From Methylobacterium sp. WL1 (GTDB lineage Bacteria > Pseudomonadota > Alphaproteobacteria > Rhizobiales > Beijerinckiaceae), in assembly GCF_008000895.1 (NCBI RefSeq), contig NZ_CP042823.1, forward strand, positions 3,004,001 through 3,068,000: a stretch of DNA of 64,000 nt, in the 5' to 3' direction. A model generated the notes under the pieces. The model saw nothing but the letters and a program-made list of their open reading frames with translations. It did no database searches and was not told the DNA's origin. Both the position numbers and the translations under genes were made by a program. The number at the start of each line of letters is the position of its first letter. Positions within the stretch are counted from its first letter, which is position 1. Shown piece by piece: positions 36,058 through 61,255 of this stretch.

Positions 36058-36992
36058 GCGGCGTCCCTCCAGTCGAGAATCATCTTGAGGCAGGCGGGAT
36101 CGGCGAAGGCGGTGCGGTAGGCGTCCTGGGCTTTGGCCGCCGGGGCGCGGTGGGTGATCAGCCCATCGAGGGACAGTCGGCCGCTCTCGATCAGCGCCGT
36201 CACCGAGGCGAGATCGTCGGGGCGGAACTCCGCCGAGATCCGGATCCGTGCTTCCCGCATGAAAGCGGGCGGGAACGCGAAGGACAGCGGCGCCTCGTAG
36301 AATCCGGCAAGCACGATCTCGCCGCCGGGGGCGAGGCGGGCGATCAGCCCGTCGAGGCCGGATGCGTCACCGCTGACATCGGTGATCACAGCGTAGTCGC
36401 GCCGGGCATCCTCGTCCGGCGCCAGAACCGCGTAGCCGGCGGCACCGTCCCGCCGCGTCGGGTCCATCTCCCAGACGGTCGGCTCCGCGCCGGCGGCGAC
36501 GGTGAGGCGAGCCAGCAGCCGCCCGAGCACGCCGTGCCCGACGATCAGCGGTGTGGCTCCGGCGACGAGGCCGCCGAGCGCCCGGTAGGCCGTAGCGGCG
36601 AGCGCGATCAGGCAGGCCCGGTCACCCAAAGCCGGATCCACCGTCACGAGACGAGAGGCGGGGGCCACGAGATGGGAGGCGGCGCCACCGAACAGGCCGC
36701 GGACGGCGCCGAAGCAGCGGGCACCCGGAACGAAGACGGTTTGGCCGACCCGGACTGGCGCGTCGGCGGCGGCTTCGACCACCGTACCGACAGACTCGTA
36801 GCCCGGAACCAGCGGGTAGCCCATGCCGGGGAACGGCGGCATGCGGCCCGACCACAGGAGGCGCTCGGTACCGGTGCTGATGCCGCTCCAGCTAACCGCG
36901 ATGATCGCGTCCGCCGCTCCGGCGGGTGTCAAGGGCAGGCGAGAGACCGCCAAGCGCTCCGGACGTTCGAGGATCACGGCGAGAGCGTCCAT
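36054..36992 (-). CDS. bchC: Bacteriochlorophyllide 3-hydroxyethyl dehydrogenase
   Basis: 312-residue member of the medium-chain dehydrogenase superfamily, which oxidises the 3-hydroxyethyl group to acetyl during bacteriochlorophyll a synthesis. Features are SWSGISTGTERLLW, GYPLVPGYESVG, the nucleotide-binding IVGHGVLGRLLARL and the C-terminal LDGLITHRAPAAKAQDAYRT. It starts at ATG 36990-36992, with a short palindrome GGAATATTCC directly upstream and a PpsR-type operator about 57 bases upstream, so it probably has its own regulated promoter inside the superoperon. Confidence 0.95.
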   Translation of the reverse strand: MDALAVILERPERLAVSRLPLTPAGAADAIIAVSWSGISTGTERLLWSGRMPPFPGMGYPLVPGYESVGTVVEAAADAPVRVGQTVFVPGARCFGAVRGLFGGAASHLVAPASRLVTVDPALGDRACLIALAATAYRALGGLVAGATPLIVGHGVLGRLLARLTVAAGAEPTVWEMDPTRRDGAAGYAVLAPDEDARRDYAVITDVSGDASGLDGLIARLAPGGEIVLAGFYEAPLSFAFPPAFMREARIRISAEFRPDDLASVTALIESGRLSLDGLITHRAPAAKAQDAYRTAFADPACLKMILDWRDAA

Positions 36993-43017: not shown

Positions 43018-44282
43018 TCAGGCCAGGGCACGTCCCCGTCCGCCCGGGTATCCCCACGGGCGGATCCGTTCGGCGATGCAGGCCAGGGTCGCAAGGCCCA
43101 GCGCGAGCCCGAGCGGGAATCCCGTCAGCCCGGCGCATTCGCGCAGGAGCGCGAACAGCGGTGTCGCCAGCAGGAGCGCGCGCTCGTGGCGGCGCAGGCC
43201 GCCGGCGCGGTGCGCGGCCAGCACCAGCAGCAGCGTCGCCGGGACCAGCGGGACGAGGTCGTAGACCGGCAGGTAGGGCGAGCAGCGGCGCGGCGGCGAG
43301 CAGGGCGGCGGCCCGGAGGTCGGGGCGTGGCCGGCAGCGTCCAGGCGCGGATCGCGAGGGCGAGCGCCAGGGTGGCGACGAGCGCCTGCAGGGCCCAGGC
43401 GGCGGCGATCGGGCCGCCCAGCAGCCGGACGGCCCCGAACGCGCTGGCGTTGAGTTCGAGCCCGGCCGCCGCCTGCTGGAGGATGATGCGGTTGGTTTCC
43501 GACAGGGTCCCCAGGAAACCGATCCAGGGCGCGGCGCCGAACAGGGCCAAAGCGGTCAGGCACAGGGCCAGTACCGTGCCCAGGCAGGCGGCCAGGCAGG
43601 TGCCGCGGCCGGTGATCAGCAGCAGCAGCGGCGCCAGGGCGGCGAAGTGCGGCTTGTAGGCCAGCAGGCCGAAGCACAGGCCCGCGAGCCAGGGGCGGCG
43701 GTCGACCAGCACGGCCCCGACGGTCATGAGCGAGGCCGTGAACAGGCCGTTCTGTCCGTAGGTGAGGTTGCAGAACACCAGCGGATGGGCGAGCGCGATC
43801 CAGGCGGCGTCGCGCCGGCCGGCGGCGAACCGCATCGCCCCGGCGAAGACCGCCAGCGACAGGGCGGTCCAGAGCCAGAACGCCGGCTGCGGCTCCAGCG
43901 TCGCGAAGGCGGCGGCGGGAATCAGGAACACCGGCGGGTAGTGCCACGCGTACCGGCAATCCGGCCCGAACGCGGCCTTGAGGTTCTCAAGATGGACCGG
44001 GAGATCGTAGGGCTCGCCGCCCCGCCCCTCGAGCGCCGACCGGCCGGCCACCCAGATCTGGCTGAAATCGTTGCCCAGCATGTCGCCGTACCAGTTGCGG
44101 CGCGGCTCCGGGCCGGTGCCGAACACGACCGCGACGATGAGGAGCGTCAGCGGCACCAGCACCCAGGCGGCCCGCTGGGCGAAGGCGAGGAGCCGCGCGT
44201 CGCTGCCGACGAGGTCCTTGAGATCGGCCCGGAGCGCCGCGAACCGTGACGCCGGCGCCTCGATCGGGATGGGCGCGGACAT
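43018..44282 (-). pseudogene. GT87-type (DUF2029) glycosyltransferase, frameshifted
   Basis: Membrane mannosyltransferase-like protein that would use polyprenyl-phosphate sugars. From ATG 44280-44282 (AAGGT site upstream) the frame runs with GT87 features: NDFSQIWVAGRSALEGRGGE, CRYAWHYPPVFLIPAAAFA, CNLTYGQNGLFTASLM and AYKPHFAALAPLLLL. Near 43315 the sense continues in another frame (DLRAAALLAAAPLLALP), and near 43270 again in a third (VYDLVPLVPATLLLVLA) to the stop at 43018-43020. So two frameshifts fall in the C-terminal membrane part. All segments keep coding character, so sequencing indels are as likely as real inactivation. Confidence 0.75.
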
Positions 44283-44420
44283 GGCGACCTTCGGCAGAGT
44301 GCTGGCCGCCACTTCTAGGCGACGGCGGTTCCGGCGCCGTTAACGGCGGGGTTTGCCGAACGCGGCGGCTTGTGCGAGACGAGCGCGGCTGCGACATTCG
44401 CGCCGTCAACGGGGGCGGCG

Positions 44421-45660
44421 ATGACGATGCGAGCGGACGAGGCCTCCCCCGCCCCCCGGATCCTGATCTACAGCCACGACACGTTCGGGCTCGGCCACCT
44501 GCGGCGCTCGCGGGCGATCGCCAACGCCATCGTGGCCAGCAGCCCCGGTGCGCGGGCCATGATCATCTCAGGCTCCCCGGTGGTGGATTGCTACGCGTTC
44601 GCGCCCGGCGTCTACACCGTGCGGCTGCCCCCGGTGACGAAGTTCTCCGACGGCGGATACGCGAGCCTCGACGGCACCACGCCGCTCGCCAGCACCGTGG
44701 CGCAGCGCACCGCGATCATCGGCCGGACCGACGCGAGCTTCGAGCCGGACCTGATCCTGGTGGACAAGGAACCCGCGGGCTTCCACGGCGAACTGATGCC
44801 GGTGCTGGAGCGCGCCGCGGGCCGGGGCACGCGCCTGGTGCTCGGCCTGCGCGACGTGCTCGACGACGCCGACCGCCTCGTGCCCGAATGGGAGCGCAAG
44901 GGCGCCGCCGAGATCATGGCCCGGTTCTACGACGAGATCTGGGTCTACGGCCTCAGCCGGATCCACGAGCCCTTGGCGGCCCTGCCGATGGACCCCGAGA
45001 TGGCCGCGCGGATCGCCGAACGGCTGATCTATACCGGCTATCTCCGCCGGGAGGTCCCTGCGATGCAGGCCGGCCGCGAGGAGCCGGCCGTCGCCCGCGC
45101 GCCGTTCGTGCTGGTCACGCCCGGCGGCGGCGGCGACGGCGCGGCGCTGATCGACTGGGTGATCGCGGCCTACGAGGCCGATCCCGGCATCCCCCTGCCC
45201 TCGCTGATCGCGTTCGGTCCGTTCCTCGACGATTCCACCCGGGACGGCTTCACGGCCCGTATCGACCGGCTCGGGGGCCGGATCGCGGCGATCACCTTCG
45301 ACAGCCAGATCGAGTTCCTGATGCGCAAGGCCGCCGGGGTCGTCGCGATGGGCGGCTACAACACCTTCTGCGAGATCCTGTCCTTCGACCTGCGGGCGAT
45401 CCTGGTGCCCCGGACCGAGCCTCGCCGGGAGCAGGCGATCCGCGCGCTGGCGGCCGAGCAGCTCGGCTCCGCCCGGGTCCTGCTGGAGGCCACGGCCGCG
45501 CCCCTGAGCGGATGGCCGCCGCGTTCGCGCTCTGCCGGGACCAGAGCGAGCCGTCGCGGGGCTGGGTCCGGGCCTGCTCGACGGGCTCGACGCGGTCGCG
45601 CGCCGGGTCCGGGCCCTGGCCGCGCCAGGCGCTGCGACCCGCGCGCGGGCCTATTCGTGA
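44421..45660 (+). pseudogene. MurG-like glycosyltransferase A, 3' end frameshifted
   Basis: About 410 residues from ATG 44421. It has an N-terminal RILIYSHDTFGLGHLRRSRA and a nucleotide-sugar-binding C-terminal domain with VTPGGGGDGAALIDW and the motif AAGVVAMGGYNTFCEIL, a GT28/MurG-like organisation. The frame is clean to about 45500. After that the expected sense moves to frame +3 (ERMAAAFALCRDQSEPS) and, near 45555, to frame +2 (GLLDGLDAVARRVRAL) ending at TGA 45658-45660. That stop overlaps the GTG start of the next gene. Only the last 50 residues are affected. Confidence 0.75.
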
Positions 45661-46912
45661 CCGAGACGCGCATCGCGGTGGTGCTCAAGGGCTACCCGCG
45701 GCTCTCCGAGACCTTTATCGCCCAGGAGCTGCTGGCACTGGAGCGGCGTGGCCTGTCCCTGGAGATCTGGTCCCTGCGCCGGCCCACCGACCGGGCCCGC
45801 CACCCGATGCACGCGGCAATCCGGGCGCCGGCCACCTACCTGCCCGAATATCTGCGCGACGCGCCCCTGCGGGTGTTGCGCGGTCTCGGCTCGGCCCTGA
45901 CGCGGCGGCGCCTCCCGGCCCTGCTCGCCCTGTTCGCCCGGGACCTTGTCCGCGACCCATCGGCCTCGCGCCTGCGCCGGCTCGGGCAGGCGCTGGTTCT
46001 CGCGCGGGAGCTGCCGGCCGAGGTCGGCCACATCCACGTGCACTTCCTGCACACGCCGGCGAGCGTCGCCCGCTACGCCGCGCTGCTGACCGGGCGGCGC
46101 TGGAGCTTCTCCGCCCACGCCAAGGACATCTGGACCACGCCGGCCTGGGACCTCACCGAAAACCTCCGACGCGGCCTGGGGTGACCTGCACCCGCGACGG
46201 GCTCGCCGCCTCGACGCGCTGGCGCCGGGCCGGACGCGGCTGGCCTATCACGGCCTCGCCGCGCTTTCCGCCCCGCCGCCGGCGCGGGGAGCCCCGCGAC
46301 GGGACCGACCTGGCGGCACCCTGGGGCTGCTCAGCGTCGGCCGGCTGGTCGCCAAGAAGGGCCACGACGACCTGATCGACGCGCTGGCGGCCCTGCCCCC
46401 GGGCCTGCACTGGCACCTCGACCTGATCGGCGGCGGCGACCTGCGTGGCGCGCTCGAAGCCCGGATCCGCGCGCTCGGGCTCCCGGACAGAGTCACCTTC
46501 CGGGGCGCCCAGGCGCAGCCCGCCGTGATCGCGGCGATGCGCGGCCGACCTGTTCGTGCCAGACCGCTCGCCCCCGGCGGCACCGGGACGGGCTGCCGAA
46601 CGTGCTGGTGGAGGCCGCGAGCCAGGCGCTGCCGATCCTGGCCACCGCCTTCGCGGGCACGCGCGGAATTTCTGACCGACGGCAGCCACGCCGTCCTGGT
46701 CCCCGGGCGACCCGGCGGCGCTGTCGGCGGCCCTGGCGCGGCTTTCCGCCGACCCGGCCCTGCGGCTCTGGCTCGGCGTCGCCGCCCGGGCTGGTTCAGG
46801 ACTCTCCGAAGACGCCGCCATCGACCTGATCGCGGAGGCCCTGTGCACCTCCGCGGGCCTCGCCGCGCCGGTGAAGGTCCGCGAACCGGATATGGCCGCG
46901 TGCGGGTCCTGA
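45657..46912 (+). pseudogene. GT4-type glycosyltransferase B with multiple frameshifts
   Basis: Starts at GTG 45657 in a GTGA overlap. The N-terminal half is intact in one frame: RIAVVLKGYPRLSETFIAQE, HIHVHFLHTPASVARYAALL and WSFSAHAKDIWTTP. From about 46150 the expected GT4 sequence jumps frames six times (near 46165, 46205, 46540, 46575, 46664 and 46705) while still encoding recognisable pieces: VTCTRDGLA, LAYHGL, LLSVGRLVAKKGHDDLIDAL, ADLFV, DGLPNVLVEAASQALPILAT and EFLTDGSHAVLVP. It ends at TGA 46910-46912. The retained sense in every segment suggests an originally complete, colanic-acid-type glycosyltransferase. Confidence 0.75.
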
Positions 46913-48946
46913 TCGCGGTCACGCATCTCCTCGGCGCCGGGCATCTCACCCGCGCCGCCGCGCTGGGGCGCGCCTTCGTGGCCTCCGGCCACGACGCGCT
47001 GCTGGTCTCGGGCGGCGTCCCGGCCCCGATGGTGCGGCTCAGCGATGTCCGCCTGGTGCAGCTGCCGCCGCTCCGCGTCGCCGGCACCGACTTCGCCCGG
47101 CCCCTGGGACCGGACGGCAGCCCGGCCGATCCAGCCCTGTTCGCGCGCCGCCGCGCCCTGATGCTGGACGCGCTGGCGGATTTCGCCCCCGACGCGGTCA
47201 TCACCGAGCTGTTCCCGTTCGGCCGCCGGGCGCTCGCCGCCGAGTTCCTGGCTCTGGTCGAGGCGGCGCAGGCGCCTCGGCCGCGCCCACGGGTGCTGGC
47301 CTCCCTGCGCGACATCCTGGTCGCCTCCGCCAAGCCGGAACGGATCGCCGAGGCGCATGAAAGGGTCGCGCGGCTCTACGATGCCGTGCTGGTCCACGGC
47401 GACCCGGCGATCGTGCCGCTCGACGCCTCCTGGCCGCTCGATGCCGGAACCGCGGGCAAGATCCGCTACACGGGCTACGTCGATGACGGCTCCCGAACCG
47501 TCCCGGCGGCGACGCGCACCGGCGTGCTGGTGGCGGCCGGGTCCGGGCCGGCTGGGTCTTCGGGCTGTTGAGCGCCGCGGTTGCCGCGGCCCGATGCGCC
47601 CGTCGCTCGGCTGGCGGATCCTGGCGGGCAACGGCGTGCCGGACCCCGAACTCGCCGCGATCGCCCATGGCTTGCCCGAGGGCACGATCGGGCGCGCCCG
47701 GCCCGATTACCGGAGCCTGCTCGCCGGGTCGGCCCTGTCGGTGAGCCAGTGCGGCTACAACACCGCCCTCGACCTCCTGGCGACCGCGACCCCGGCGGTG
47801 CTGGTGCCGTTCGAGGCCGGCGGCGAGACCGAGCAGCGGCTGCGCGCGGAATGCCTGGCAGGGCGCGGGCTGGGCCGGGTCCTGCCGGAGTCCGAGTTGA
47901 CCGCGGAATCGCTCCTGCACGCGGTGGACGCAAAGCTCCGAGCCACGCCGCCGGGGCCGCACGGGATCGATCTCGGCGGGGCGGCGCGGACGGTCGCGAT
48001 CGTCGAAGATTTGTTCAGGCTCCACGGGCGGCCGGAGGTGCTCGGTCAGGCGCCGGTCCCCCCTCCCGCACGGGAGGAGGGTTTCGTCGCGCCCTTTGAG
48101 AGCCGAGGTTTGAACGTCGTAGCCCGCAATGGGGGGAGGGAGAGCGCCCGGTTGGGCTTCGTCGCCCTCCGAAACGCCCTCGACGAAGCCGCGGCAGGCG
48201 GCCGGGGTGTGCGGTTCTGGTGGCGGGACGACGATGCCGTGGCGGCGTCCCCTGCCCTGGACCGGCTGATCGCCCTCGCCGAAGCGCACGGCGTGCCGCT
48301 CCTGCTCGCCGCGATCCCGAGTGGCATCGAGCCGTCCCTCGGAGAACGGCTCGCCGTGGCAAAGTCCGTGAGCGTCGCCGTGCACGGACTGGCCCACCAC
48401 GATCACGCCCCGCCGGGTGAGAAGGCCGCCGAGTTCGGCCCGCACCGTCCGCTCGACGCGCTCGTGGCGGATGCCGCGGCCGGGTTGCGGATAGCCCGCG
48501 CGCGCCTGGCCGAGGCGCAGCTGCTGCCGGTCTTCGTGCCGCCCTGGAACCGGTTCGCCCCGGACCTGGCCGCCGCCCTGCCGGGACTCGGCTATCGCGG
48601 GCTATCGGCGGTGCCCGGACCGGCGATCCCGGGGCTCGTCCGGGCCGACGCCACCCTCGACCCCATCGATTGGCGCGGCACCCGCTCGGTGCGCGACCCC
48701 GACACGCTGCTGCACGACCTCGCCGCCGGCATCACCCGCGATCCGTCCCGCCCGGTCGGCCTGCTCACCCACCACCGCGTCCACGACGCGGCGATCTGGG
48801 CCTTCGTGGCCGACCTGCTCGCGGTCCTCCGCGACCATCCGGCCGTGACATGTCTCGATCCCGAAAGCCTATTTTCCGGTGCCATGGTGGAAACCGGCGC
48901 TGCGGCATCTAATCTTCCGGTCTCACCCGCTGCGAGGACAGGTTGA
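46900..48946 (+). pseudogene. MurG-like glycosyltransferase C fused to a NodB-type deacetylase domain, frameshifted
   Basis: Starts at GTG 46900, overlapping gene B by 13 bases. N-terminal RVLIAVTHLLGAGHLTRAAA and the later VSQCGYNTALDLL mark it as a paralogue of glycosyltransferase A. Frame jumps occur near 47550 and near 47605. From there one open frame runs through the glycosyltransferase end (about 48030), a linker encoded by a palindromic element (48050-48165), and a polysaccharide-deacetylase-like domain (RFWWRDDDAVAA with the metal Asp pair, HGLAHHDH with the His pair, LLPVFVPPWNRFAP) to TGA 48944-48946. The two domains may originally have been separate genes. Confidence 0.7.
48050..48165. 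repeat. Palindromic element inside the glycosyltransferase-deacetylase frame
   Basis: Core CTCCCG-CA-CGGGAG (48063-48076) is flanked by C-runs and G-runs (from 48058; GGAGGG at 48076-48081), and an outer G-rich arm around 48131-48141 can pair back to the C-rich start. The element is translated in frame as a Pro/Arg/Gly-rich linker. A related element lies in the substrate-binding protein gene 3.7 kb downstream. Confidence 0.6.
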
Positions 48947-53701: not shown

Positions 53702-54714
53702 TCATCCAGATCCTCCGCCGCATCGTCACCATGGCGGTGACGCTGCTCGTCATCTCCGCCTTGGTGTTCCTCATCATCAAGCTGCCGCCGGGCGACTACC
53801 TGACCAACCGGATCATGGAGCTGCGCGCCACCGGCGAAGCGGGCTCCGTGGCCAAGGCCGAGTTGCTGATCCGCCAATACGGGCTCGATCGGCCGGTCTG
53901 GGAGCAATACCTGATGTGGATCGGCCTGATGCCGGGACCGGTCGGGTTCTCGGGGCTGCTCCAGGGTGATTGGGGCTGGTCGTTCGAGTACGACAAGCCG
54001 GTGGCGGACGTGGTCGGCGACGCTCTGTGGCTGACCCTGCTGATCAACCTGACCGCGGTGGTCTTCGTTCACGTGGTCGCGATCCCGGCGGCGATCTATT
54101 CCGCCACCCACCGGCACACAGTCGGGGACGCGGTGGTGACGCTGCTCGGCTATGTCGGGCTCGCCGTGCCGGGGTTCCTGCTGGCGCTGATCCTGCTGTT
54201 CTACGCCAACCGCTGGTTCGGCCTGTCGATCGGCGGCCTTTACGATTCGGCGCTGACCAACCAGCCCTGGGACTGGCCCAAGATCCGCTCGCTGCTGGCG
54301 CATCTGGTGGTGCCGACCCTGGTGATCGGGCTGGGCGGCACCGCCGCGATGATCCGCCGGATGCGGGCGAACCTGCTGGACGAGCTGGCCAAGCCCTACA
54401 CGGTTACCGCCCGGGCCAAGGGCCTGCCGCCGATGCGGGCGCTGCTGAAATATCCGTTCCGGATGTCGCTCAACCCGTTCGTGGCCGATATCGGCAACCT
54501 GCTGCCGCACCTCGTCTCGGGCTCGGTGCTGGTCTCGCTGGTGCTGAGCCTGCCGACGGTCGGGCCGCTCCTCCTCGACGCGCTCCGCAGCCAGGACCAG
54601 TTCATGGCCGGGTTCATCCTGATGTTCGTCGCCGGACTCACGCTGGTCGGCATGCTGATTTCCGACCTGATCCTGGTCTGGCTCGATCCGCGCATCCGCA
54701 TGGGCGCGCGGTGA
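53698..54714 (+). CDS. Peptide-type ABC transporter permease (YejB-like)
   Basis: 338-residue inner-membrane permease of the DppB/OppB class from GTG 53698 (GTGA overlap with the binding-protein stop). An N-terminal membrane segment (VTMAVTLLVISALVFLIIKL) is followed by PPGDYLTNRIMELRATG and IRQYGLDRPVWEQYLMWIG, then five more segments. The coupling helix YTVTARAKGLP with KYPFRMSLNPFV is the EAA-type loop that contacts the ATPase. It pairs with the next gene to form the channel. Confidence 0.92.
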   Translation: MIIQILRRIVTMAVTLLVISALVFLIIKLPPGDYLTNRIMELRATGEAGSVAKAELLIRQYGLDRPVWEQYLMWIGLMPGPVGFSGLLQGDWGWSFEYDKPVADVVGDALWLTLLINLTAVVFVHVVAIPAAIYSATHRHTVGDAVVTLLGYVGLAVPGFLLALILLFYANRWFGLSIGGLYDSALTNQPWDWPKIRSLLAHLVVPTLVIGLGGTAAMIRRMRANLLDELAKPYTVTARAKGLPPMRALLKYPFRMSLNPFVADIGNLLPHLVSGSVLVSLVLSLPTVGPLLLDALRSQDQFMAGFILMFVAGLTLVGMLISDLILVWLDPRIRMGAR

Positions 54715-54727
54715 TGGGCGCGCGGTG
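54700..54727 (+). repeat. 14-bp tandem duplication at the permease-permease junction
   Basis: ATGGGCGCGCGGTG occurs twice head to tail (54700-54713 and 54714-54727), covering the stop of the first permease and the GTG start of the second. Removing one copy would restore a GTGA overlap like those at the other junctions of this operon. Confidence 0.9.
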
Positions 54728-61187: not shown

Positions 61188-61255
61188 TGACGTCGTGCAG
61201 GCCGACACCTTACCGGATGCGGCTGATCCAGCCGATGTGGAAGACGTGTCGCGCC

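Follow-up and report, generated by a model that had tools for sequence, protein, structure and literature searches.

The window analysed here, a stretch of 64,000 nucleotides from Methylobacterium sp. WL1, is part of a 6.2-Mb contig in a two-contig genome and carries a cluster of four glycosyltransferase genes, each of which is frame-broken in the deposited sequence (Table 1). The open part of the GT87 gene matched PF09594 in Pfam with 104.1 bits against a cut-off of 25, placing it in that family, while PF04101 (Glyco_tran_28_C) matched gene A and the later part of gene C, and PF00534 matched the middle piece of gene B. Pfam searches returned no match for the first pieces of genes B and C or for the long C-terminal half of gene C (48200-48943). 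In relatives, gene C is one frame of ~650 amino acids that reaches ~48946, which corrects an earlier note. Its linker (48040-48170) is extended by 66 bases, a multiple of three, relative to Methylobacterium brachiatum, at a palindromic stretch. Similar DNA occurs at 4 places in the same genome (itself included) and at 17 in M. brachiatum, and the extension is a dispersed palindromic repeat within coding sequence.

Table 1. Glycosyltransferase genes of the cluster (positions in the window).
Gene	Coordinates	Strand	Reading frame
GT87-type glycosyltransferase gene	43036..44312	-	frame-broken; disturbed patch ~43280-43325
Gene A, glycosyltransferase with Glyco_tran_28_C domain	44427..45660	+	frame-broken near 3' end; patch ~45491-45560
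Gene B, group 1 glycosyltransferase	45657..46909	+	frame-broken; patches ~46165-46206, ~46258-46320, ~46538-46582, ~46662-46702, doubtful 46790-46803
Gene C, glycosyltransferase with Glyco_tran_28_C domain	46900..48946	+	frame-broken; patch ~47556-47594

Frame disruptions compared with intact relatives

Genes A, B, and C are single frames in relatives, and so is the GT87 gene where it was found beside them (e.g., in strain G002 and in M. brachiatum B0021, the nearest named relative found, 92% in gene A). A search with gene A found 586 named loci, of which the best 80 were taken. Counting hits of at least 45% identity and including the query's own source once per gene, a single frame with no stop was present in 77 of 80 hits for A, 62 of 77 for B, 59 of 59 for C (first 375 amino acids), and 5 of 5 for GT87; 3 hits for B and 20 for C fell below the identity threshold. 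The exceptions within this set were three hits with one stop for A, and 12 with one stop plus three of low coverage for B.

Frame-aware alignment to intact relatives, together with DNA alignments, bore out the positions of the twelve frame jumps given in the preliminary description, although twelve is only a minimum, with gene B disturbed further in the second and, doubtfully, the last of its patches (Table 1). Multiple alignment against M. brachiatum gave 16 gaps that are not multiples of three and one 6-base gap (split into 5 + 1 by pairwise alignment), for a total of 17 indels. Deletions make up 14 of the 17, several indels are 2-6 bases long, and together they group into roughly seven short patches. 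The disruption of the patches was absent from all five relatives compared, and M. brachiatum and strain NEAU K showed no gaps between them in the 100-base windows holding the patches. Gene models of M. brachiatum B0021 were passed through a coding-frame filter, and 44 of them aligned to the window. Leaving aside runs of <18 bases and gene ends, four had displaced frames, namely GT87, A, B, and C. When the comparison was reversed, frames were displaced in 2 of 42 models, both belonging to this cluster. This filtered-model version replaced two earlier ones, and was chosen after their results had been seen. The version using all ORF models gave no GC signal (resampling P = 0.28 and 0.35), and that based on tblastn frame breaks gave 10 forward and 11 reverse, and so no asymmetry; the latter overlooked genes A and B and called an additional break, at 61218 in the window, that DNA alignment does not bear out. 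We attribute both null results to spurious ORF models.

Sequence in the patches also differs by substitution. Where five relatives share the same base, the window was mismatched at 33 of 284 columns and gapped at 16 of 284 inside the patches, versus 78 and 0 of 2,071 outside, while M. brachiatum as comparison had 12 mismatches in 296 columns inside and 94 in 2,167 outside; the patches were delimited by the anomalies themselves, and these counts can be raised by misalignment next to gaps. The GC-rich homopolymers that had been named as the cause are a weak explanation. Runs of at least three bases were touched by 7 of 17 indels (background 24% of sites) and runs of at least four by 3 of 17 (background 6%), a mild excess with most indels elsewhere, and single-base runs account for only part of the indels, several being 2-6 bases long with substitutions alongside. 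Hairpins were also considered. Once GC was taken into account, the 17 indel sites showed no excess of predicted folding strength (mean residual +0.5, sd 2.7), with 31% of the background as strong as or stronger than the median site, and three sites (43322, 47557, and 47594) within the top 2%.

Two further anomalies were observed in the window. At ~54700-54727, a 14-base tandem copy splits two frames, which resemble transporter permeases by eye and correspond to one 650-amino-acid ORF in M. brachiatum. It was seen in DNA alignments and ORF comparison, was not picked up by the displaced-frame test, and may be real because local GC is ordinary (0.685 in M. brachiatum). At 36563-36568, where 200-base GC is 0.81, a 1-base insertion and a 1-base deletion lie a few bases apart relative to M. 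brachiatum, perhaps representing another garbled spot with no net effect on frame.

Local GC content and frame breaks along the chromosome

Within the window, 200-base GC at the patch centres ranks between the 93.9th and 99.9th percentiles. The intact sequence of M. brachiatum has a mean GC of 0.772 at the onsets of displaced runs, versus 0.708 for coding positions; none of 20,000 resamplings reached 0.772, although the onsets are not independent and 2 of the twelve fall in the poorly conserved linker of gene C. Some equally GC-rich 100-base windows (at ~22.6-22.8, 38.65, and 45.05 kb) contain no frame break, which counts against the error explanation.

A coding-frame model was used to scan 20 stretches of 20 kb each, placed at random on the same chromosome, for breaks without a stop. 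We found 17 breaks, in 10 of the 20 stretches; since the scan misses closely spaced compensating jumps (only three strict breaks were found in the window itself), the rates are minima. Strict breaks initially numbered 18 in the sampled stretches, with 1 in 238 kb of control sequence; dropping segments of ~60 bases or less reduced the sample count to 17. Breaks were distributed unevenly with 200-base GC: none in 184.9 kb of coding sequence below 0.72, 2 in 71.0 kb at 0.72-0.75, and 15 in 50.6 kb at ≥0.75, versus 3 in 200.4 kb of controls in the last class (Fisher's exact test, P = 1.4e-8, treating all 17 breaks as independent, whereas they collapse to 14 places). Below 0.72, 7 breaks were seen in 511.4 kb of controls versus none in the 184.9 kb of the assembly (P = 0.20), and the scan therefore has a background unrelated to GC. 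By source, controls gave 2 breaks in strain G009 and 7 in G002 (400 kb each), 1 in 170 kb of M. brachiatum, and 1 in 138 kb of neighbour stretches from four relatives; the seven in G002 count against the error explanation.

In three stretches, picked because the scan had flagged them, 7 of 44 gene models had displaced frames on comparison with M. brachiatum, versus 2 of 42 when the comparison was reversed. One of the seven (stretch L134, 11929-13602) was displaced whichever way the comparison was made, which may reflect true variation or a misalignment. Elsewhere, a break lying between two likely genes (L120) may represent a fusion, and a search of M. brachiatum with stretch L128 matched only parts of it, none around the break. 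In L134, a stretch of ~30-60 bases (within 1239-1302) matches more than 20 places in M. brachiatum and represents another dispersed repeat family.

The genes affected elsewhere are unrelated to one another, and include those for a gamma-glutamyltranspeptidase, a HupE/UreJ protein, and a GNAT-domain protein; composition is followed and gene function is irrelevant. Hence, the description of the breaks as confined to four adjacent genes holds within the window (4 of 44 models) but not in the genome, where unrelated genes break too. Disruption of linked genes only, which would characterize pathway-specific pseudogenization, was likewise seen in the window and not in the genome sample.

Origin of the disruptions

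From the sequence comparisons, we consider it highly probable (roughly 0.93) that the four genes are intact in the organism and that the frame breaks are local consensus errors of the deposited sequence, grouped in short patches where GC peaks. The preliminary description had put clustered consensus errors first, and this is strongly supported here, as breaks in the assembly become more frequent with increasing local GC, whereas controls of the same GC have few. Given such errors, accurate reads may have been missing or unplaceable at GC-extreme spots, where errors of a noisier read type would then have remained uncorrected in the consensus, a route we judge somewhat better than an even bet. 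The glycosyltransferase cluster would be affected often since several of the GC peaks of the window lie in it.

A real and recent loss of the glycan pathway, in which indels accumulated in the four adjacent genes once selection relaxed, would fit the fact that all four lie in one cluster and all are affected, and that the pieces between jumps are still family-like protein, as expected if the loss were very recent. However, it predicts no GC trend, GC-rich places in unrelated genes break throughout the sampled chromosome, and the indels fall in short patches with substitutions rather than evenly across the genes. A gene-blind, GC-dependent, and assembly-specific pattern is expected under consensus error and not under pathway loss; the loss, offered earlier as the alternative, is not needed, fits the genome-wide pattern poorly, and is in our view improbable. 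Real indels arising from a GC-targeted mutational process, which would break genes at GC peaks along the chromosome, would likewise yield the GC trend of the scan, but such a process must break many unrelated genes and yet leave their pieces conserved, and we rate it lower still. Programmed frameshifting, or truly separate short genes, would be compatible with pieces that are open and family-like between jumps, but is the least credible reading given the single frames of relatives, and is refuted for the closest of them.

Consensus error as the source of apparent frameshifts has precedents. Mycobacterium smegmatis is GC-rich. Among its interrupted genes, 28 of 73 investigated proved to be errors on resequencing (PMC1852416), a case that resembles ours in presenting apparent frameshifts in a GC-rich bacterium; the events there were single, whereas ours are multi-indel patches with substitutions, tied to local GC. 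Kastor addresses gene-fragmenting indel errors in long-read bacterial assemblies (PMC12007338), and the deletion-prone consensus errors giving false pseudogenes are similar, although those errors are mostly associated with homopolymers, in contrast to the 7 of 17 indels touching runs of at least three bases in the window. Uneven short-read coverage has been linked to GC (PMC6796507), with a dependence that is alike at the 200-base scale; the strong bias reported in that study concerns low-GC regions, and it does not directly support the high-GC gaps proposed above. Our literature search listed no paper on frame breaks in this glycosyltransferase operon.

The feature is most likely an artefact, of low biological interest. 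A completeness score of 99.99% gave no sign of the problem. Before a pathway is taken to be lost, apparent pseudogenes in this assembly should be examined in relation to local GC, and the same caution perhaps extends to other assemblies of very GC-rich bacteria.
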